The notes under the pieces were generated by a model, which ran no database searches, was not told the DNA's origin, and saw only the letters and a program-made list of their open reading frames with translations. From contig NZ_WUWN01000006.1 in assembly GCF_009846865.1 (NCBI RefSeq), forward strand, positions 1 through 64,000: DNA of 64,000 bases, written 5' to 3'. This DNA comes from Puerhibacterium puerhi (lineage in GTDB: Bacteria > Actinomycetota > Actinomycetes > Actinomycetales > Cellulomonadaceae). A program made the position numbers and the translations under genes. This document shows positions 50,773-61,363 of this stretch, piece after piece; the first letter of the stretch is position 1; every line of letters begins with the position of its first letter.

Positions 50773-51192
50773 TCAGGGCTGCGTGTCGCCGTCGACGTAC
50801 AGCCAGCGCCCGCCCGGGCCGGCGGGCTCACGCACGAACCGGCTGACCTCGTGCAGCCGGCCGCGCTCGCCGGAGGCGCCGTCGCGCCAGAACGCGGCGA
50901 ACTCGACCTCGCCCTGGTCGTCGAACGGGCCGCCGCCGCGGGTGGCCAGCACGTCGAGGCGGCGCCAGGCGACGTCGTCGTCGAGGTCCACGGTGGCCGG
51001 CCGGGTGCGCGGGTGCCACGAGGCGAGCAGCCACGCGGCGTCGCCGACCGCGAACGCGCTGTAGCGGGAGCGCATCAGCGCCTCGGCTGTGGGGGCGAGG
51101 CGCTCGCCGCGGTGGATCGGGCCGCAGCAGGCGCCGTAGGTGTCGCCGGACAGGCAGGGGCAGCGGTCGGAGTCCGCGATGGTGAGGGCCAC
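50773..51192 (-). CDS. YchJ family protein (SEC-C-like zinc motif)
   Basis: The 139-aa protein begins MALTIADSDRCPCLSGDTYGACCGPIHRG, with the CPC...CC cysteine pattern of the SEC-C/YchJ zinc motif, and then LAPTAEALMRSRYSAFAVGDAAWLLASWHPRTRP, the conserved YchJ block. The function is not well established; zinc binding is expected. The start is a GTG at 51192 with a short upstream region and no clear ribosome site. Confidence 0.82.
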   Translation of the reverse strand: MALTIADSDRCPCLSGDTYGACCGPIHRGERLAPTAEALMRSRYSAFAVGDAAWLLASWHPRTRPATVDLDDDVAWRRLDVLATRGGGPFDDQGEVEFAAFWRDGASGERGRLHEVSRFVREPAGPGGRWLYVDGDTQP

Positions 51193-51230
51193 GGCCCCTA
51201 GTCTCGCGCGCCGCGCCGCGGCACCGTGAT

Positions 51231-51296
51231 CGCCGAGACCCGGATCTTCGGGGTGACGCAGAGGCCGATACCCCCCGGGAATCCGAATCTCGGCGG
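51231..51296 (-). terminator. Inverted repeat after the MFS gene
   Basis: GCCGAGACCCGGATCTTCGGGG and CCCCGGGAATCCGAATCTCGGC-like arms face each other across about 20 bases. On the minus strand it starts CGCCGAGATTC, the same head as the CGCCGAGATAGAGAG repeats, just past the MFS stop. Confidence 0.6.
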
Positions 51297-52550
51297 TCAG
51301 TCGGTGGCCAGCGCGGCCGGCTCGGTGCCCAGGGTCGCGTCGACCTCGGGCGCGTGGTGCGGCAGCGGCGGGTTGACCCGCTCCTCGATCAGCGTGCTCA
51401 CCAGCGCGAGCACCACCAGTCCGGCGCCGACGACCGGCACCGCCTGGACCCCGACGCTCGCCGTCAGCGCCGCGCCGAGGCCGGAGCCGCTGGCGATGCC
51501 GAGGTTGAACGTCGACGACGACATCGCCATGCCCATGTCCGTGGAGCCGGGGGAGACCAGCATGATCCGGTGGGACAGCGTGGGCGGGATGGTGGAGAAC
51601 GCGAAGCCGAACAGCGCCAGGCACACCACTGCCCCGACCTTGTTCTCGCCGAAGGCGGACAGCATCAGCAGGGCGAGCGCGATGACCGTCAGGCCGGTGA
51701 TGAGCACCTGGGTGGAGTGCCGGTCGAGGAACCGCGCCACGAGCAGCGCGCCCAGCACGCCGGCGCCGCCCTGCACCAGCAGGAGCCAGGAGATGTCGGC
51801 CTGCTGGTAGCCCGCGACGTCCTGCATGAGCTGGGTGACGAAGGTGATGAGGCCGAAGGAGCCGGTGACCACCAGCGCCGTGGTGACCAGCTGCGGCCAG
51901 AACCGCCGCCGGTTGGGGAACGGGGCGCGCGAGGCGCCGCCCTCCTCCGGGCGCACCATCGGGAACATCACGATGACGATCACGAAGATGACCGCCGAGA
52001 GCGCGGCCACGGCCCAGAAGGTGGTGCGCCACCCGGCCTGCTGGCCGAGCCACGTGCCGGCGGGCACGCCGATCACCGGCGCGAGCGAGTTGCCCACGGC
52101 GAGCCGCGCCATCACCCGGCCACGCACGCGGGGGCGGAACAGGCCGGTGGTCGCGGGGATCACGGCGACCCAGAACAGCGCCTGGGCCAGGGCGGTGATG
52201 AGGCGGGCGGCCATGATCTGCTCGTAGCTGGGCGCGAACGCGGCCCACAGGGTGGCCAGCGCGGCGACCCCCACGCAGGCCGAGAGCACCCACCGGCGCG
52301 GCACCCGCCTGGTCCACTGCGCCAGCGGCACGGACGCGACGAGCACGACGAACGCGTAGCCGGTGACCAGCAGGCCGATCTGGGACGTCGAGCGGCCCAG
52401 GTCGGGCGCCATGAGGGTCAACAGGCCGCTGGGCAGGCTCTCCACCAGCACGAACAGGAAGGTGGAGACCGCCATCGCCACGAGGATCACGGTGGCGCGC
52501 CGCTCGTCCACCACGGGCACGAACGGGCGCGGTGCGGTGGGCGTGCTCAT
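51297..52550 (-). CDS. MFS transporter, drug/sugar efflux type
   Basis: The 417-aa protein has twelve hydrophobic segments, the conserved loop 2-3 motif (LAQWTRRVPRRWVLSACVG) and a cytoplasmic N-terminus rich in charged residues. SotB/AraJ-like members export sugars, arabinose or drugs. The substrate is unknown. The ATG at 52550 follows GGAGGCCCCC. It is divergent from the GH3 gene with a 268-base spacer. Confidence 0.82.
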   Translation of the reverse strand: MSTPTAPRPFVPVVDERRATVILVAMAVSTFLFVLVESLPSGLLTLMAPDLGRSTSQIGLLVTGYAFVVLVASVPLAQWTRRVPRRWVLSACVGVAALATLWAAFAPSYEQIMAARLITALAQALFWVAVIPATTGLFRPRVRGRVMARLAVGNSLAPVIGVPAGTWLGQQAGWRTTFWAVAALSAVIFVIVIVMFPMVRPEEGGASRAPFPNRRRFWPQLVTTALVVTGSFGLITFVTQLMQDVAGYQQADISWLLLVQGGAGVLGALLVARFLDRHSTQVLITGLTVIALALLMLSAFGENKVGAVVCLALFGFAFSTIPPTLSHRIMLVSPGSTDMGMAMSSSTFNLGIASGSGLGAALTASVGVQAVPVVGAGLVVLALVSTLIEERVNPPLPHHAPEVDATLGTEPAALATD

Positions 52551-52818
52551 GGGGGCCTCCGACGGCGGTGGGGACTGGTGGTGCGACGACGCGCGGGCGC
52601 GGTGCGGGCGGGGTCGTCCGCGTCGGGCGACGGATCGGTCGGCCGGGGCGACCGGCCCGCGATCCGCGGGCGATCGGTCGAAACGATTCTAGGGGGCGGC
52701 TGCGACGCACCGGCAAGCGGATTGCCGCGCCGCGGCCCAAGGAGCGGTCCGAGGTGCGAACGCCCGGATCGCGTTCTTACGGTCGACCCGACGCCGACGA
52801 CACGAGGGAGTGTTCGCG
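52551..52818. promoter_or_regulatory. Divergent control region with two candidate operators
   Basis: It holds GAAACGATTC (52680-52689), reminiscent of LacI-family half-palindromes, and CGGCAA-N5-TTGCCG (52711-52727). TACGGT (about 52777) could be a -10 for the GH3 gene. No gene is seen in it. Confidence 0.45.
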
Positions 52819-54825
52819 ATGACGACGAGGTCGACGCGTGCGGTGCGGGCAGTGACGGCGGGGGCGGCGTGCGCGGCGATGGCCGCGACGCTCGCGGTGG
52901 CGGCGCCCTCGGCGCTCGGGCTCGGGGCGGTCGCGGTGCCTGCCCACGGTCACGGCCGCCACCAGCCGGAGCTCGAGAGCCGGTCCGCGCCCGTGCTGCG
53001 GGTCGACGGCGCCCGGTTCCGCGACCTGGACCGCAACGGCCGCCTGACGCCGTACGAGGACTGGCGCCTCAGCCCCCAGGAGCGCGCGGCGGACCTGGTG
53101 GGGCGCCTCAGCCTGGAGGAGAAGGCCGGCCAGCTGATCCACGGCAGCCTCACCGGCTCGGGCACCTACGACCGCGCCGCGTTCGGGGCGCTGCTCGACC
53201 AGCACGTCACCACCTACATCTCGCGGCTGAGCGCCGGCGCGGCCGAGCTCGCCGCCGAGCACAACGACCTGCAGGCCGCCGCCGAGGGCCAGCCGTTCGG
53301 CATCCCGCTGATGATCAGCACCGACCCGCGCAACGGCTTCACGGTCACCGAGGGCCAGACCGTCTCCAACGGCGACTTCACCGCGTTCCCGGACGCGATC
53401 GGCGTCGGCGCGATCGACTCCCCGCGGCTGACCGAGCAGATGGGCGACGTGATCCGCCGCGAGTACCGCGCCGTCGGCATCCACGAGGCGCTGTCACCCC
53501 AGGCGGACATCGCGACCGAGCCGCGCTGGACGCGCATCAACGGCACCTTCGGCTCCACGGGCCGGCTCGCCGCGCGGCACGTCGCCGCGTACGTCGAGGG
53601 CCTGCAGGGCGACGACGACGGCGTGGCGCGCGACGGCGTCGTCACCGTGGTCAAGCACTTCGCGGGCTACGGCGCGCAGGTCAACGGCTACGACAGCCAC
53701 TACTACTACGGTCGGTTCGCGGCGTTCCCGGGCGGCAACTTCGCCGAGCACCTGGTGCCGTTCGAGGCCGCGTTCCGCACGAACGCGGCCGGCGTCATGC
53801 CGACCTACTCGATCCTCAAGGACCTGCGGCTCGACGGGGAGCCGCTCGAGCAGGTGGGCGCCGGGCACAACGAGCAGCTGCTGCAGGGCATGCTGCGCGG
53901 CCGGTACGGGTTCGACGGCGTGATCACCAGCGACTGGGGCATCACCGGCGACTGCCCGCAGGCGTGCCAGGAGAACCGGCCGCCGGCGTCGTTCATCGGC
54001 CCGTGGGGCGTGGGCATGCCGTGGGGCGTGGAGGACCTGACCCGGGCGGAGCGGTTCGCCAGCACCATCAACGCCGGCGTCGACATCGTGGGCGGCGACG
54101 ACCACCCGGAGTACATCGTCCAGGCGGTGAAGCAGGGGCTGCTCAGCGAGGACCGGGTGGATGACGCCGCGCGGCGCGTGCTGGCGCAGAAGTTCGAGCT
54201 CGGGCTGTTCGAGGACCCGTACGTGGACCCGGCCGCCGCCGACCGGGTCGTGGGCGCGGAGCCGCACCACCGCCTCGGCGAGGCGATGCAGGCGCGCTCG
54301 CTGACGCTGCTGCAGAACGACGACCGCACGCTGCCGGTGAAGGTGGGCCGGCACGGGCTGGCGGTGTACCTGTACGGCGTGGCGCCCGAGGCCGCGGAGG
54401 CGCTCGGCCTGCGGGTCGTGCAGGACCCGGCCGACGCCGACCTCGCCGTCGTGCGGCTGGCCGACCCGCGCGGCGGGGACGACCTCACCGGCCTCGACTT
54501 CACGGGTGACGAGCCGGACTACCAGGCGCTCGTCGCGGCGCACGAGGCGGGCACGACGACGGTGGCGTCGCCGCAGCTGTCGCGGCCGCTGATCCTCGGC
54601 AACGTGCTGGAGCACTCCGACGCCGTGCTCGCCAACTACGGGGTGTCCGACGACGTGCTGCTGCGCACGATCCTGGGCAAGGAGCGGCCGGGCGGGACGC
54701 TGCCGTTCGAGCTGCCGTCGAGCATGGCCGAGGTGGAGGAGCAGCTCGGGGACGTGCCGGACGACACCAGGAACCCGCTGTTCGAGCGCGGGTTCGGGCT
54801 GAGCTACTCGAGCGAGCGGCGGTAG
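52819..54825 (+). CDS. Secreted glycoside hydrolase family 3 enzyme (beta-glucosidase type)
   Basis: The 668-aa protein has a signal peptide (about 1-45), then the EF-hand-like RFRDLDRNGRLTPYEDWRLSPQERAADLV that commonly leads GH3 beta-glucosidases. Its GH3 N-terminal domain has KHFAGYGAQVNGYDSHYYYGRF and the nucleophile region GFDGVITSDWG. A shortened C-terminal domain ends FERGFGLSYSSERR. It likely splits beta-linked glucosides outside the cell, in keeping with a plant-polymer-degrading actinobacterium. The ATG at 52819 was chosen because GAGGGAG lies nine bases upstream; an earlier GTG at 52810 has none. Confidence 0.9.
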   Translation: MTTRSTRAVRAVTAGAACAAMAATLAVAAPSALGLGAVAVPAHGHGRHQPELESRSAPVLRVDGARFRDLDRNGRLTPYEDWRLSPQERAADLVGRLSLEEKAGQLIHGSLTGSGTYDRAAFGALLDQHVTTYISRLSAGAAELAAEHNDLQAAAEGQPFGIPLMISTDPRNGFTVTEGQTVSNGDFTAFPDAIGVGAIDSPRLTEQMGDVIRREYRAVGIHEALSPQADIATEPRWTRINGTFGSTGRLAARHVAAYVEGLQGDDDGVARDGVVTVVKHFAGYGAQVNGYDSHYYYGRFAAFPGGNFAEHLVPFEAAFRTNAAGVMPTYSILKDLRLDGEPLEQVGAGHNEQLLQGMLRGRYGFDGVITSDWGITGDCPQACQENRPPASFIGPWGVGMPWGVEDLTRAERFASTINAGVDIVGGDDHPEYIVQAVKQGLLSEDRVDDAARRVLAQKFELGLFEDPYVDPAAADRVVGAEPHHRLGEAMQARSLTLLQNDDRTLPVKVGRHGLAVYLYGVAPEAAEALGLRVVQDPADADLAVVRLADPRGGDDLTGLDFTGDEPDYQALVAAHEAGTTTVASPQLSRPLILGNVLEHSDAVLANYGVSDDVLLRTILGKERPGGTLPFELPSSMAEVEEQLGDVPDDTRNPLFERGFGLSYSSERR

Positions 54826-55142
54826 ACCAGCCTCCAGGGGCATGCGTCGATAAGCGACCTCCACCCCACGCGATGCCGAGTGGTATCAGCAACGCGGACG
54901 GCGACCGGACGTCGGCGTCAGGACGGGCACGCCAAAAGCCGTAACCCCTACGTGGGCGCGCGAGTCGTCGTTGGCAGTGCCATCAAGCCGACGCTTCAGT
55001 TGCGCTACTGCTTGCCCGTGAGTCAAGTCACACGTTGCCGGACCCGATCCTTATGGCACAGGCCGCGTTGTCGGTGCCCAGGCGTAGCCTGCAGGCACGT
55101 GTTGGGAATCGGGCCATGGGTGGAGCGCATACAATGAGCCGC
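54826..55142. other. Spacer at the left edge of the restriction-modification island
   Basis: About 317 bases with no convincing ORF or tRNA. The composition shifts to lower GC from about 54840 on, so this is the probable left border of acquired DNA. I could not find direct repeats that would mark an attachment site. Confidence 0.5.
55130..55135 (+). promoter_or_regulatory. Candidate -10 for the methyltransferase gene
   Basis: TACAAT, seven bases, ATG at 55143. The in-frame ATG at 55134 falls inside this box, which favours the 55143 start. Confidence 0.55.
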
Positions 55143-56414
55143 ATGCCGAACGATCGCTTTACAGCTCTATCGCTTTTCTCCGGGGCTGGTGGCCTAGATG
55201 TCGGCCTGGACCGCACCGGCAGGTTTGAATTGCTGGCGTGCGTAGAGATTGAGCAGCGATTTTGCGAAACGCTAGTGGAGAATCGCGACGCTGGCCGGTT
55301 CGGATCAGATCGGACGGCGATCATTCAAGCTGACATTTCTCAACTCGACCCCTACGCGTTAATGGACGAGCTTCACCTGAAGCCGGGCGATCTCGATCTT
55401 CTTGTAGGCGGACCACCATGCCAGAGCTGGAGCACAGCAGGTCGCCGAGGAACGATCCAGGATCCTCGTGGTCTCCTGATTTGGGACTATCTCAAGTTTG
55501 TCGAGGCGCTACAACCGAAGTACTTCCTCATGGAGAACGTCCGGGGGCTCTTGTCCGGTGCGTTGCGTCACCGACCGATTGCGTTGCGCCCTGACAAGGG
55601 CGGCCCTCCGCTGTCCGAGGAAGAGCAGCCTGGTTCGGCGGTGGCCGCCTGGATTGACGATCTAGGCAAGATTAACAACGGCGCATACCGCGTCGATGTG
55701 TACGAAGTAAATGCCGTCAACTATGGAGCGCCGCAACTCCGAGAGCGGGTTCTGTTTATTGGTAACCGTTTCGGTGATGTGGTCGACTTTCCGAAGCCTA
55801 CGCATGGGCCTTCTGGAAGTGGCCTCAAACCCTATGCGACGCTCGGCGATGCAATCAAGGGCTTCACCGAAGAGAACCCGGTGCTCGTCGATTTCTCACC
55901 GCGGAAGAAGTACTATCTCTCGATGGTGCCGACGGGTGGGAACTGGCGGGCGCTACCAGAGTCCGAGGCGAAAGCGTCGATGGGCAAGGCGTTCTATGCT
56001 AAGGGCGGGCGATCTGGCTGGTGGCGCCGCCTATCGTGGGACTTGCCGTGCCCAACGGTTACAACACTTCCCAACCACTCAAGCACGAGCATGTGCCACC
56101 CAGAAGAGACGCGCGTCCTGTCCGTAGGGGAGTTTTCACGGGTTCAAGAGTTCCCCGATGGGTGGACTTTCTGCGGTGCCCCTGCCGAGCAGATGAAGCA
56201 GGTGGGAAACGCGGTTCCTGTGCGACTTGGTGTGGTTGCAGGCGAGGTGGTGGCGCAGCATTTGACTCGCGCGTTGTCGGGCGCTGTGGCGACGGGTTCC
56301 GAAGTGCCCCCGAGTCGCCGCGTTTACCTCCAGTCGCATGTGCGAACGCGGCAGTGGTGGAAGGACGGGAAGGCGGTTGTGCGAGCAGATGTAGCTGGAG
56401 CGTCGGCCCCCTAA
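55143..56414 (+). CDS. DNA cytosine-5 methyltransferase of a type II restriction-modification system
   Basis: The 423-aa protein has the ordered m5C motifs: I FSGAGGLDVGL (11-22), IV GGPPCQSWSTAGRRG with catalytic Cys93, VI ENVRGL (131-136), VIII PQLRERVLFIGN and X QVGNAVPVRLG. The variable region between VIII and X should set the target sequence, which cannot be read here. It uses SAM to mark host DNA. Codon use and base composition are AT-richer than neighbours, indicating transfer. Its 3' end faces the restriction endonuclease gene 54 bases away (convergent). Confidence 0.9.
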   Translation: MPNDRFTALSLFSGAGGLDVGLDRTGRFELLACVEIEQRFCETLVENRDAGRFGSDRTAIIQADISQLDPYALMDELHLKPGDLDLLVGGPPCQSWSTAGRRGTIQDPRGLLIWDYLKFVEALQPKYFLMENVRGLLSGALRHRPIALRPDKGGPPLSEEEQPGSAVAAWIDDLGKINNGAYRVDVYEVNAVNYGAPQLRERVLFIGNRFGDVVDFPKPTHGPSGSGLKPYATLGDAIKGFTEENPVLVDFSPRKKYYLSMVPTGGNWRALPESEAKASMGKAFYAKGGRSGWWRRLSWDLPCPTVTTLPNHSSTSMCHPEETRVLSVGEFSRVQEFPDGWTFCGAPAEQMKQVGNAVPVRLGVVAGEVVAQHLTRALSGAVATGSEVPPSRRVYLQSHVRTRQWWKDGKAVVRADVAGASAP

Positions 56415-56468
56415 GCGAATGGGGGGCAGGGCTGAGAAGAATTTCCGCTCTGCCCCCCCGCGCCTGGC

Positions 56469-57407
56469 TCAGAATGCCTTGCGGAAAATCATCTCCCACA
56501 TATCGTCTTCGGTGCCCATAAGCTCAAATTCGTCCCGGAAGGATTGCGAGAGCTTCAGCCGCGCCTCGATGAAGTGTTCGAAGAATGTCTTTCCGCCGTG
56601 TGCGATGGCGAAGCGGCTCTGGGCTTCCCGGATTGCCCGGTAGACCTCCATGTGAGCATTGCGCACCCCGGTGACGAATTCCCAGAGATCTTTCCCAACG
56701 AGGACGTGAAAGTACTCGCCGGTCTCCCGGGCGACCAGGGCAGGCTTGTTATTGAGGCTATCGTGCTTTCCGTAAAAGATTCCTAGGATGATGTTGCAGC
56801 CCGTGGCCTTGTGGATATTCGGGAAGCGTTGGATCATTTCGTTCGCGTGGGACTGGTTCATGGTCCATGGGCCGGACTTCCACGTGGTTAGGTAACGTTC
56901 ACCTTCAACGGTGATCTCAGCATCGATGGGGCTCCACTCAGACTTGAGCTGTCGCTTCTCGGGTGGCTCCTTTACGCCAAAAAGCTCGAAGATGTGCTTC
57001 TCCACGTACTTGCCGAAGGCGGTTGCGTCGCCGTGAAACATCTTGGCGTTCTGAGTGTATTCAGCGACTTCAAACGGAGAGTACAGGTTGTAGGCGGGCG
57101 CCATTGCGAGCATGAGGAACGGGTTGATGTTTACATCGCTCGATGAGACGTCGACAAGTTCCTGCATCTTCCTAAACCGGCGCTCGATAAGTTCGAGGGT
57201 CACATTGACCATGCCCTCGAACTTTTCATCAGGCATGTTGTCCGTAAGGACGTTTCGCGCGACGACGGTGCGCTCGACAAGCTCGACCTCTTCAGGTGAG
57301 GCGGGGGGTGCGGCGACTTCGGTGCTTTGGCTGTCGTCCAGGGGGTGGGAGGGCTGCTCGATGACTGTCTCACTCACATCGGGAATGCTCTCATGGGCGC
57401 GGTGCAT
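56469..57407 (-). CDS. Probable type II restriction endonuclease, PD-(D/E)XK type
   Basis: The 312-aa protein has a helical lead, then a core with SEWSPIDAEITVEGERYLTTWKSGPWTMNQ. Asp162 and Glu164 precede TTWK177, resembling a PD-(D/E)XK site in which the second acid is unclear. The KSGPxTMN block recalls PmeII-like restriction enzymes as I remember them. It is convergent with the m5C methyltransferase and shares its atypical composition, so a restriction partner is the simplest reading. The function is inferred, not proven. Confidence 0.72.
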   Translation of the reverse strand: MHRAHESIPDVSETVIEQPSHPLDDSQSTEVAAPPASPEEVELVERTVVARNVLTDNMPDEKFEGMVNVTLELIERRFRKMQELVDVSSSDVNINPFLMLAMAPAYNLYSPFEVAEYTQNAKMFHGDATAFGKYVEKHIFELFGVKEPPEKRQLKSEWSPIDAEITVEGERYLTTWKSGPWTMNQSHANEMIQRFPNIHKATGCNIILGIFYGKHDSLNNKPALVARETGEYFHVLVGKDLWEFVTGVRNAHMEVYRAIREAQSRFAIAHGGKTFFEHFIEARLKLSQSFRDEFELMGTEDDMWEMIFRKAF

Positions 57408-58204
57408 CTAGGCTCGGCTCGGTGTACACGGCCATGCCGGTGCCCTCACGAGATGCTCTAGAGGACTATCGTTCTGCGGTTCCCTGGTGGGGTTGGCGGC
57501 GGCTTCCTGGTGGAATGCGTCGTGGCCACGCCTAGGGCCAGCGAGTCGAAGATCCCGAGCGGGATGCTCCACAGTCGGCAACGGCCTCCGGGCGGCTTGT
57601 GGAGTGCGCCGATCGGCCCCGTGTGTTCCACGTCGTCCTAACAGTGCAGGTGTAGCCGGCGGCGCGTCACTCGCGAGCTCCGGTCTGAAGGGGTGAGCGC
57701 GGTGCGGCGGCGCGAGCTGGCGCCGGGCCCGAGGATCCTGTCCACAACGCTCTATGTACGTCGCGGAGCTGGTCGGGCCATTCCTGATCGGCGGAGGGGC
57801 GCGAGGCAGAGCGCGCGTGTACGGCGCCATGCTTCAGATCCTTGAGATCTTCCCTGCTCGTCGGCCCCGCTCCGCGGTGGCGCGACATTAGTCCTGCGGG
57901 TCGACACCCTCTGGATGCTCACTGGAGGATCGTTGCGGAGGGTTCTGTCGCGTTGGAGTAATGCGCACGCGCACGTGTCTGAGGGGTAATAGGCGTCAGC
58001 GTGCAGGGCGAGTGCAGTCGTGCTCAGCGACGGACTGGGAGCGCCGACGACGTACTCGGGGCGGTGGCGGTGCGAAGGTGTCGGAGTGTCACTGAGTTAG
58101 GCTTTGCAGGGCGTCGCCCGGTCGCTACGGATCCGCACAGAGCAACCGCCCGGTGGGGATGACGGTGCCCGACACGTCGGCGCCCTACGCTATGGTTTCA
58201 ACCA
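57408..58204. other. About 0.8 kb without a convincing gene
   Basis: The composition is mixed and the open frames (for example 57408-57830 and 57667-57888 on the minus strand) are Arg/Pro-rich and lack domains. This may be the right edge of the island and decayed genes. No tRNA or rRNA is seen. Confidence 0.5.
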
Positions 58205-58320
58205 GGTCACGAGCGATCAGCGATACGCCCTCCGCGTGCTGGTCCGGCAACCGCGCCCCTCGCGCACGGTGCCCCAGGAGGAAGACCGGCCCGCCGGCAA
58301 CCGCCGCGGGAAGCGCGAGG
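58205..58320 (+). ncRNA. SAM-IV riboswitch
   Basis: It begins GGTCACGAG, has ATCAGC...GCTGG pairing, then TCCGGCAACC, GGTGCCCCAGGAGGAAGACC closing the P1 helix, and a 3' GGGAAGCGCG. This follows the SAM-IV layout (GGUCAUGAGUG...GCUGGCCGGCAACC...GUGCCCCGGGUGAUGACC...GGCAAGCGCG) known from actinobacteria, including the 3' pseudoknot strand. It should sense S-adenosylmethionine. It lies 60 bases before the start of an uncharacterised 145-aa gene. Confidence 0.82.
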
Positions 58321-58358
58321 CAGCTTTCGCCCTCGACCCGTCCGGGCACGGCGAGGCT

Positions 58359-58375
58359 CCTCCAGACGTGGGAGG
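58359..58375 (+). promoter_or_regulatory. Hairpin that can hide the Shine-Dalgarno sequence
   Basis: CCTCC (58359-58363) can pair with GGAGG (58371-58375) across a seven-base loop; GGAGG is the ribosome site for the ATG at 58381. With the riboswitch upstream, this fits translational control. Confidence 0.6.
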
Positions 58376-58380
58376 TACCC

Positions 58381-58818
58381 ATGACTCGGTCCGCCGAGAA
58401 CGACGCGCCCCGGGACGACACGCCCCGAAACGCGACGCACCGAGACGAGGCCCGCGACGCCGTGCTGCCCTGGTTGCACGTGGAACCGGAGCACCGGCAC
58501 AGCTACCACCTCATGATGCTGCGCATGGAGGCCCGACGCCGGGCCGGCGAGGAGCTGCGCGAGGTCGACCTCGGGCGGTTGGGCTCGTGGCTGCGCAACC
58601 TCGAGGAGCTCAACGCCGTCGTGCTGTACGACCCGGAGACGCCGGACGGCTTCTACCTGGTGCCGCGGCTGGCGCAGGACGGCCAGGGGATCGCGCGCCG
58701 ACCCGGTCCCGGGCGGCAGGACGACCGCCGGCGTAGTCTGCGCAACCCCGGCTCGGGCCGGCCCGGTCCCCGCTGGCCCGGTCCCCGCTGGCCCGGCCGT
58801 CCGCCCGCCGCGGAGTAA
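58381..58818 (+). CDS. Uncharacterised 145-aa protein under the SAM-IV riboswitch
   Basis: The protein has an acidic/His-rich N-terminus (RSAENDAPRDDTPRNATHRDEARDAVL), a central block HSYHLMMLRMEARRRAGEELREVDLGRLGSWLRNLEELNAVVLYDPETPDGFYLVPRL, and a Gly/Pro/Arg tail that repeats GPRWPGPRWPGRPP (encoded by a repeated CCCGGTCCCCGCTGG). I do not recognise the family. The ATG at 58381 follows GGGAGG. The riboswitch context suggests a link with SAM or sulfur metabolism, but the sequence does not show an enzyme motif. Confidence 0.7.
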   Translation: MTRSAENDAPRDDTPRNATHRDEARDAVLPWLHVEPEHRHSYHLMMLRMEARRRAGEELREVDLGRLGSWLRNLEELNAVVLYDPETPDGFYLVPRLAQDGQGIARRPGPGRQDDRRRSLRNPGSGRPGPRWPGPRWPGRPPAAE

Positions 58819-58915
58819 CGCCGCGGAGTGACGGAACGGGTGGCCGGCGGCACGCAGAAATGCCCCGCCGCCCGCCCGCCCGCCGCGCACGCGGACGCCG
58901 TGCCACCCTGGACCC

Positions 58916-59422
58916 ATGACGACCACCCGCTCGCACGCTTCCGCCGACATCGACGAGACCGACATTCAGACGGTGATCGCCCAGGTCGAGGCCGAGGAGC
59001 GCGACCTGGTGCTGCAGCGCTTCACGCACGACGACGCGTGGCGCCTCGGCTGCCTGCTGGTCGAGCTCGCGGCCGAGCGCAACCACGCCGTGACGATCGA
59101 CGTGCGCAAGGGCACCCAGCAGGTGTTCCACGCCGCGCGCGAGGGCACCACGCCCGACAACGACACCTGGGTGGACCGCAAGGTCCGCACCGTCTACCGG
59201 TTCGGCACGTCGTCGTACCTCCAGGGCCTCAAGGCGCGCGCCAAGGGCCAGGACTTCAACCACAAGCACGGCCTGCCGTTCACCGAGTACGTGGCGCACG
59301 GCGGCGCGTTCCCGATCCGGGTCGACGGCGTGGGCATCGTCGGCGTCGTCACCGTCTCCGGCCTGGCGCAGCAGGACGACCACGCGCTCGTCGTCGAGGC
59401 CCTGCACGCCTACAAGGGATGA
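58916..59422 (+). CDS. UPF0303 / heme-degrading-domain family protein
   Basis: The 168-aa protein has FTHDDAWRLGCLLVELAAERNHAVTIDVRKGTQQVFHAA and EYVAHGGAFPIRVDGVGIVGVVTVSGLAQQDDHALVVEAL, the conserved blocks of the UPF0303 (YbcJ/GlcG-like) fold. Relatives include proteins annotated as heme-degrading; the activity of this one is not known. The ATG at 58916 is preceded by CACCCTGGACCC, like the aldo/keto reductase start. Its stop overlaps the next gene (ATGA). Confidence 0.75.
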   Translation: MTTTRSHASADIDETDIQTVIAQVEAEERDLVLQRFTHDDAWRLGCLLVELAAERNHAVTIDVRKGTQQVFHAAREGTTPDNDTWVDRKVRTVYRFGTSSYLQGLKARAKGQDFNHKHGLPFTEYVAHGGAFPIRVDGVGIVGVVTVSGLAQQDDHALVVEALHAYKG

Positions 59423-59775
59423 CGACGGCGGTGGCGGGCGCGGGCGCGACCGGCCCCGACGAGACCGACCCCGACGAGCTCGGGCGGCTGCTCGCCCGCG
59501 TGCCGGAGGGCTGGACGCGGTTCGAGATCGCCGGCCGGCCGTGGGCGGTCAGCCGCGTGCCGCGCGGCGACGGCCGCACCGTGACGCTGGAGGCCGAGCA
59601 GCTCGGCGGCGCGGACGCCTTCGGCGCGAACGTCTGGCTGACGTCGTCGGGCCCGGTGCTGCGTCCGTGCGAGGTGCCCGCCGAGAAGGTGCTCGGCCTG
59701 CTGCGGTCGCTGCCCGAGCCGGACCCTGAGCCGCCCGCCCAGCCCGAGCCGGGGCGCGAGCGCGACGACCGGTGA
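59419..59775 (+). CDS. Conserved small protein, unknown function
   Basis: The 118-aa product has ELGRLLARVPEGWTRFEIAGRPWAVSRVPRGDGRTVTLEAEQLGG, a block I have seen in actinobacterial hypotheticals, and a Pro-rich tail. Its ATG overlaps the stop of the UPF0303 gene, so they are translated together. No catalytic motif is visible. Confidence 0.6.
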   Translation: MTTAVAGAGATGPDETDPDELGRLLARVPEGWTRFEIAGRPWAVSRVPRGDGRTVTLEAEQLGGADAFGANVWLTSSGPVLRPCEVPAEKVLGLLRSLPEPDPEPPAQPEPGRERDDR

Positions 59776-59790
59776 GGCGACCGTCCTGGT

Positions 59791-59796
59791 TAGGGT
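59791..59796 (+). promoter_or_regulatory. Candidate -10 for a leaderless HAD gene
   Basis: TAGGGT, six bases, GTG at 59803; no ribosome site. Confidence 0.5.
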
Positions 59797-59802
59797 GCCG
59801 CC

Positions 59803-60420
59803 GTGGCCGCTCGCGCGCTGATGGTCGACGTCGACGGCGTGGTGGTGCGCCGCTCTGGCGGCCGCACGTGGCACGCGGACCTGGAGGCCGACCTCGGCAT
59901 CCGCCCCGAGGACCTGGACCGGGTGTTCTTCCGGGCGCACTTCGACGACGTCCTCGCCGGCCGGGCGGACCTGTTCGAGCGCCTGGACGACGCCCTCACG
60001 CAGCTGTCTGCCACGGTCCCGTCGAGGGAGCTCGTCGACTACTGGTTCGCGCGCGACGCGATGCTCGACACCCGGCTGCTCGACGACCTCGCCGCCGCGC
60101 GAGAGGCGGGCTACGACGCCCACCTCGCCACGGTCCAGGAGCACCATCGCGCGCGGTACCTGTGGCACACCCTGGGCCTGCGGCACCACTTCACGGCCAT
60201 CCACTACGCCGCCGACCTGGGCCACCGCAAGACCGACCCGGCCTTCTACGCGGCGGTGGAGGGCAGGACCGGGCTGCGGCCCGCGCGGCACTGCCTCGTC
60301 GACGACTCCGAGGCGAACGTCGCGGCGGCGCGAGCCGCGGGGTGGGCGGCGTACCGGTGGGATGCGACGTCGGTGCTCGACGACGTCCTGGCAGCGTTCG
60401 ACCGGACGGGCCACCGATGA
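59803..60420 (+). CDS. HAD family hydrolase
   Basis: The 205-aa protein has the motif I nucleophile MVDVDGVVV (Asp9, Asp11) and motif IV CLVDDSEANVAAARAAG, with the cap helices between. HAD enzymes are phosphatases or mutases; the substrate is unknown. The GTG at 59803 is supported by the leaderless -10 spacing. Confidence 0.82.
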   Translation: MAARALMVDVDGVVVRRSGGRTWHADLEADLGIRPEDLDRVFFRAHFDDVLAGRADLFERLDDALTQLSATVPSRELVDYWFARDAMLDTRLLDDLAAAREAGYDAHLATVQEHHRARYLWHTLGLRHHFTAIHYAADLGHRKTDPAFYAAVEGRTGLRPARHCLVDDSEANVAAARAAGWAAYRWDATSVLDDVLAAFDRTGHR

Positions 60421-60496
60421 GTTTCACGCCCGGCCCCCGTCCTCCCTGCTGACACAGCCTTTCCTGACGAGGCGCGCCCGACGACGGAGGACGACG

Positions 60497-61363
60497 ATGC
60501 CCGAGCCCACCACCCGCACCCTCGAGGTCCCCGGTGCGGTCCTGACCTACGACGTGCGCGAGCCGGCGGCCCCCAGCACGGAGCGCACCCTGGTGCTGGT
60601 CGGGTCGCCGATGGCCGCGGCGGGGTTCACCACGCTGGCCGGCCACTTCGACGACCGACGCGTGGTCACCTACGACCCGCGCGGCGTCGAGCGCAGCACG
60701 CGCACCTCGGACGACCCGGTCACCCCGGAGACCCGTGCCGACGACCTGCACCGCCTGGTGGCGGAGGTGGGCGGTGGTCCGGTCGACGTCTTCGCCTCCA
60801 GCGGCGGCGCCGTCGACGCCCTCGCCTGGGTGGCCGCGCACCCGGACGACATCGCCACGCTGGTGGCGCACGAGCCGCCGCTGCCCGCGGTGCTGCCCGA
60901 CCGCGAGGCGGCCGCCGCGGCCATGCGCCGCAACCACGAGATCTACATGGCGCAGGGGTTCGGCCACGGCATGGCGCACTTCATCGCGATCGTCAGCCAC
61001 GAGGGCGAGTACACGCCCGAGGTCGTGGAGATGCCGGCGCCCGGCCCGGCGATGTTCGGCCTGCCCACCGAGGACGACGGCTCGCGGGACGACGGGCTCA
61101 TGGGCGTCAACATGCGCACGTACCCCGAGTGGGAGCCCGACCTCCAGGCGGTGCGCGCCGCCCCGACGGTCGTGGTGCCGGCCTACGGCGAGGAGTCGCG
61201 GAACATCATGACCGGCCGCGCCACGATCGCCCTCGCCGAGCGGCTCGGGACCGAGCCGCTCGAGTTCCCCGGCGGCCACGACGGGTTCCTCGGCGGCGAG
61301 TACGGCCAGACGGGCCAGCCCGAGCCGTTCGCCAAGCGGCTGCGCGAGGTGCTGCAGGGCTGA
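60497..61363 (+). CDS. Alpha/beta hydrolase
   Basis: The 288-aa protein has VVTYDPRGVERS, the nucleophile elbow VFASSGGAVDALAW (first Gly replaced by Ala, so ASSGG) and the His near GHDGFLGGEY. The fold covers esterases and related hydrolases; the substrate is not readable. The ATG at 60497 follows GGAGGACGA. It is not clearly coupled to neighbours. Confidence 0.78.
   Translation: MPEPTTRTLEVPGAVLTYDVREPAAPSTERTLVLVGSPMAAAGFTTLAGHFDDRRVVTYDPRGVERSTRTSDDPVTPETRADDLHRLVAEVGGGPVDVFASSGGAVDALAWVAAHPDDIATLVAHEPPLPAVLPDREAAAAAMRRNHEIYMAQGFGHGMAHFIAIVSHEGEYTPEVVEMPAPGPAMFGLPTEDDGSRDDGLMGVNMRTYPEWEPDLQAVRAAPTVVVPAYGEESRNIMTGRATIALAERLGTEPLEFPGGHDGFLGGEYGQTGQPEPFAKRLREVLQG

Follow-up and report, generated by a model that had tools for sequence, protein, structure and literature searches.

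The window, a stretch of 64,000 nucleotides of Puerhibacterium puerhi DNA, contains two intact, convergently oriented genes separated by a gap of 54 bp, which encode a C5-cytosine DNA methyltransferase (M) and a predicted type II restriction endonuclease (R) and are flanked by a GH3 glycosidase gene on one side and a SAM-IV riboswitch on the other (Table 1). In agreement with the preliminary description, this tail-to-tail pair forms an AT-richer patch. M has a GC content of 0.599 and a GC3 of 0.653, R values of 0.562 and 0.738, respectively, whereas five flanking genes (MFS, GH3, small ORF, HbpS-like and HAD) range from 0.70 to 0.75 in GC and from 0.91 to 0.99 in GC3. A hydrolase gene whose start was wrongly set is omitted from this range, and its values (0.751/0.980) agree with it. 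With GC and GC3 lying far below those of its neighbours, the composition of the pair is consistent with a recent arrival.

Table 1. Features of the restriction-modification locus (positions in the window).
Feature	Position	Strand	Length	Description
Exchanged segment with the M/R pair	54826-58204			DNA between the GH3 gene end and the SAM-IV riboswitch; no counterpart in the congener
M	55134-56414	+	426 aa	C5-cytosine DNA methyltransferase
GC-rich hairpin	56421-56458			Between the gene ends; inverted repeat I4
R	56469-57407	-	312 aa	Predicted type II restriction endonuclease, EcoO109I family
SAM-IV riboswitch	58205-58321	+		RF00634, 58.4 bits (cut-off 38)

The two gene ends are separated by a GC-rich hairpin. 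For the segment at 56405-56480, the folding energy is -39.5 kcal/mol (z -3.51), and none of 200 shuffled sequences was equally stable. The hairpin is absent from the list produced by the terminator scan and lacks a T-run, so it is not a classical intrinsic terminator; it may plausibly act as a two-way transcription barrier that separates the converging transcripts. The ATG of M is preceded at a short distance by the ribosome-binding-like sequence GGTGGAG. The ribosome-binding context at the start codon of R reads as weak, and the position of this start codon is itself uncertain, with two of three close relatives aligning from residue 37 and the third from residue 19. A simple scan detected no sigma-70-like promoter, but as it follows an E. 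coli-like pattern, it tells little for a genome with 75% GC. The repeat search found no flanking direct repeats around the pair, and there was no transposase or integrase among the six ORFs of the region scanned with Pfam.

Family assignment and active site

M is readily classified. It matches PF00145 (E 2.3e-50), the TIGR00675 dcm family (154.3 bits, cut-off 100.65) and the PADLOC profile MTase_II (E 1.1e-86), and it contains six m5C motifs in the proper order, namely I (LFSGAGG, residue 14), IV (GGPPCQ, 92), VI (ENVRG, 134), VIII (QLRER, 201), IX (327) and X (QVGNAVP, 356), in line with its initial description as an m5C methyltransferase with all main motifs. The 3.9 Mb genome has no other strong match to PF00145, the only further one being marginal (22.8 bits) and located on another contig.

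R had been described as a little-known endonuclease, a view that no longer holds, since it belongs to the EcoO109I family, which has a solved member. It matches PF14511 (RE_EcoO109I) with 53.1 bits over residues 78-261 (cut-off 22.5, E 4.4e-14) and PADLOC REase_II with an E-value of 9.5e-7. It was also linked to the solved EcoO109I protein (PDB 1wtd/1wte) by phmmer (E 8.6e-8 to 1wtd) and by a four-sequence profile (E 2.8e-11), and an hhalign comparison with the Deinococcus radiophilus enzyme and EcoO109I reached a probability of 98.9%. R and EcoO109I are 26% identical over the aligned columns, and R has about 60 extra residues before the aligned core. NCBIfam provides no usable name, its sole match being phosphoserine phosphatase at 15.2 bits (E 0.0088) against a cut-off of 413. 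An AlphaFold model built from four sequences was poor (mean pLDDT 44). A literature search returned nothing on EcoO109I homologues in actinobacteria, or under RGGNCCY or orphan restriction endonuclease.

The partner of EcoO109I is an m5C methyltransferase, and its system includes a controller gene. No such gene was seen at the present locus, where a 140-aa ORF (57408-57830) had no family match in four libraries; an 85-aa ORF (54880-55137) and other small spacer frames lay outside the family scan.

To assess the residues of the active site, R was aligned with 11 further members of the family (12 sequences in all). Asp162 and Lys177, two of the three catalytic residues named in the preliminary description, are invariant (12/12) and align with D110 and K126 of EcoO109I. 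The third, Glu164, has to be abandoned, as its position is occupied by Glu in six members and by A, S, I, K, M or V in the other six, with A in the close Plantibacter relative. The position of Glu136, by contrast, is acidic in 11 of the 12 members. We infer that Glu136 is the better second acid and a candidate helix acid equivalent to E123 of AvaII (PMC7337904). Two positions before the catalytic lysine (K minus 2), R has Thr175 where EcoO109I has Ser; AvaII, a PD-(D/E)XK enzyme related to EcoO109I, is likewise non-acidic at this position, with Gln161 (PMC7337904). Finally, Trp181 of R aligns with W130 of EcoO109I, which is inserted as a wedge into the DNA at the border of the core recognition sequence (PMC7337904). 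This residue is found in six of the 12 members, namely R, its three close relatives, EcoO109I and the D. radiophilus enzyme, and is missing in the remaining six, so that it marks a subgroup rather than the whole Pfam family.

Relatives and possible partner exchange

Searches of 396 genomes each for the order and the phylum gave PF14511 matches in one and six genomes, respectively, with the own genome included in both counts. This enzyme family is rare in the genomes searched, and the pair contributes to it a branch that was encountered here in actinobacteria. No relatives of R were found in phage and viral collections at the sensitivity used. The three close relatives of R recovered in the related-locus search come from Microbacterium (67% identity), Tessaracoccus (62%) and Plantibacter (59%). 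An m5C methyltransferase gene adjoins that of R in nine of the 11 R loci examined, including the window (L011 was left out of this count). The nine pairs comprise six convergent (window, L002, L004, L007, L016 and L018), two tandem (L012 and L013) and one divergent arrangement (L014); L018 was found via M and is therefore no free test of adjacency. Of the remaining two loci, L003 contains R together with a relic of M, whereas L010 shows no M in the 2.2 kb covered.

The pairs of Microbacterium sp. HD4P20 (L002; M 67% identical) and Plantibacter sp. VKM Ac-1784 (L004; M 64% identical) share the convergent layout of the window but differ from it in their neighbouring ORFs and in gene gaps of 1 and 14 bp. 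For the Plantibacter M, the genome search reports one internal TGA, but the ORF listing gives an open frame of 477 aa. A more distant counterpart lies on plasmid pRadio6 of D. radiophilus ATCC 27603. Annotated as 'PmeII family', this nuclease belongs to the same family, has the same wedge Trp and is accompanied by a convergent m5C methyltransferase with 44.5% identity to M; it is 23-26% identical to R of the window, yet 45% identical to EcoO109I. It is probably DraII, an enzyme with the recognition site RGGNCCY. According to a title cited in PMC6658693, DraII was described from D. radiophilus. On an Agrobacterium plasmid (L015:3989-7285), the genes downstream of that for a methyltransferase with 54% identity to M, on the same strand, encode a hypothetical protein and an AAA ATPase in place of an annotated R.

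Plasmid pRh5Ap-243 of Rhodococcus pyridinivorans (L007:4884-7282) carries a convergent pair whose M is 69% identical to that of the window, whereas its R is only 22-24% identical and has the wedge Trp replaced by Ser. IS256 and IS21 genes are located near this pair. The identities among the M proteins of the window, Microbacterium, Plantibacter and Rhodococcus are all alike in the alignment (63-68%). The R proteins of the first three are 58-66% identical to each other, and that of Rhodococcus, at 20-23%, is no closer to them than the D. radiophilus enzyme (22-23%). In the M tree, the four sequences group together (94/96), with Rhodococcus placed outside the other three (85/87). The R tree, in which the Rhodococcus branch measures 4.3 changes per column, leaves eight of its nine inner forks open. 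A conflict between the two trees was consequently discarded as proof of an exchange, and it is the distances that carry the argument. They point to an exchange of the R that accompanies this M lineage, although a faster divergence of the Rhodococcus R may also account for them.

A different state is seen in Tessaracoccus caeni (L003:7944-8940), which has an intact R frame of 293 aa with the catalytic residues kept, next to a remnant of M about 35 residues long. The draft genome of this species contains two other m5C matches, both partial and 34-37% identical. Its survival may be explained by a silent or inactive R or by another methylase that protects the sites. The recognition region of M is closely similar in the relatives, and one could tentatively propose that the M clade keeps this region while R is swapped, that the swapped R proteins may differ in their flank specificity and that Tessaracoccus represents a further stage of turnover. 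If true, restriction-modification systems would evolve by replacing the nuclease while the methylation mark stays constant. One M lineage that is associated with two very different nucleases offers a direct study case for both partner exchange and flank specificity. The nuclease family as such is already known; the apparent partner exchange and the site of defence-gene replacement described below are points of specialist interest.

Predicted function and recognition site

Both proteins match families of restriction-modification enzymes in Pfam and PADLOC and have intact frames, R retains the wedge Trp as well as the catalytic Asp and Lys, and the convergent layout recurs in distant relatives. 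As far as can be judged from their sequences, the two genes very probably form an EcoO109I-like restriction-modification system of type II; the preliminary description had arrived at the same type. By analogy with EcoO109I, R would act as a homodimer whose most likely target is unmethylated RGGNCCY, where cleavage would leave three-base 5' overhangs, and M would place a C5 methyl group on a cytosine of the same site, thus protecting the host chromosome. The activity of both enzymes, the dimerisation and the overhang are to be read as predictions.

EcoO109I cuts RG^GNCCY with a three-base overhang (PMC7337904). RGGNCCY is the default guess for R, given its membership of the EcoO109I family with a solved relative and the kinship of both R and M to the D. 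radiophilus proteins, and on balance we favour it as the likely target. A new specificity, as envisaged at the outset, is possible but not the default expectation. Site counts were made in samples of the own genome (460 kb), Microbacterium (360 kb), Plantibacter (400 kb) and the congener without an R match (245 kb). These samples gave no sign of RGGNCCY avoidance, with observed/expected ratios under the Markov model of 0.99, 0.93, 1.05 and 0.98, respectively. Compared with plain base composition, the motif is low throughout (0.31, 0.23, 0.32 and 0.33) and, being so with and without the system, does not bear the mark of the pair. Avoidance would not necessarily be visible if the pair arrived recently; the counts still lend RGGNCCY no support. 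The related motif AGGNCCT is over-represented in all four genomes (1.16-1.50; 1.16-1.39 in the other three), whether the pair is present or not; in the own-genome sample, 226 copies were seen against 151 expected, which is not decisive for the site.

It is conceivable, though we consider it the lesser prospect, that the system belongs to the same family but reads a different site, such as GGGWCCC, RGGWCCY or GGNCC without flank specificity. R is just 26% identical to EcoO109I, and the related AvaII reads GGWCC; AvaII (site G^GWCC) has neither the wedge Trp region nor flank specificity (PMC7337904). In Rhodococcus, moreover, a close M is paired with an R in which Ser replaces the wedge Trp. GGGWCCC is low in Plantibacter (32 seen/50 expected, 0.64) and Microbacterium (24/32, 0.75), as is GGGNCCC (70/89 and 72/87, respectively). 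However, GGGWCCC is not low in the own genome (78/78) and, as one among many motifs examined that is low in two of four genomes, it is not decisive; in addition, Trp181 is kept throughout the subgroup of six described above, which includes EcoO109I and the D. radiophilus enzyme.

The absence of site avoidance, the lack of a recognisable sigma-70-like promoter and the weak ribosome-binding context of R would also fit a locus without restriction activity, with R either inactive or silent, that functions today as an m5C methyltransferase alone. This appears improbable, given that the frame of 312 codons is intact, that Asp162, Lys177, Glu136 and Trp181 are kept and that three other intact copies share 58-67% identity with R, while a promoter scan modelled on E. 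coli is a weak guide at 75% GC. That R is some other PD-(D/E)XK protein, adjacent to M by accident, can be practically dismissed: it has no NCBIfam name and Thr at the acidic position of the (D/E)XK motif, but the corresponding residues are Ser in EcoO109I and Gln in AvaII (PMC7337904), the Pfam, PADLOC and PDB matches agree, and eight further loci combine a relative of R with an adjacent m5C methyltransferase gene.

The exchange site and the SAM-IV riboswitch

A blastn comparison of window positions 51000-61000 with the corresponding stretch (L036) of a congener (G001) showed that the similarity ends at ~54802, where the GH3 gene ends, and resumes at ~58202. In place of the M/R pair, the congener has a gene (L036:2963-6094) for a 1043-aa PLD/helicase/DUF3427 protein, which matches the PADLOC type IV methyl-directed enzyme with 1101.6 bits over profile positions 13-937 of 945. 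This protein presumably resembles SauUSI, an m5C-directed enzyme. The presence of different defence genes in the two genomes indicates that such genes have been exchanged at this place, and the M/R pair would have been gained by an exchange of DNA between the GH3 glycosidase gene and the gene with the SAM-IV riboswitch. The horizontal acquisition suspected initially is supported by the shift in GC content and by the different gene that one congener carries at this place. In a comparison of flanks as suggested at that stage, the congener without an R match shares both flanks, with a type IV enzyme between them; an empty site was not found. As the single congener compared is a draft of 440 contigs (91% complete), its lack of R is provisional. 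Matches to the HbpS-like protein were obtained in seven relatives besides the own genome and the congener, and the GH3 gene was present in none of the four stretches looked at, leaving the congener as the only informative genome for this site.

Together in one cell, an m5C-making system and an enzyme of an m5C-attacking class should come into conflict. A place that harbours an m5C-making restriction-modification system in one species and an enzyme of the m5C-cutting type in its congener provides a testable case.

The SAM-IV riboswitch forms the right edge of both segments. Its counterpart in the congener (60.3 bits) is identical at 115 of 117 bases, and since the riboswitch and the downstream gene are common to both genomes, it lies outside the M/R pair. 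In the window, it is located upstream of a gene for a 145-aa protein (58381-58818) without a Pfam match. A SAM-IV riboswitch is also found upstream, on the same strand, of the genes for homologues of this protein in the congener (L036) and in three of four further loci, at distances by coordinates of about 55 (L121), 560 (L122) and 330 bases (L123), with none in L124. The 145-aa protein may thus represent an undescribed SAM-controlled family.
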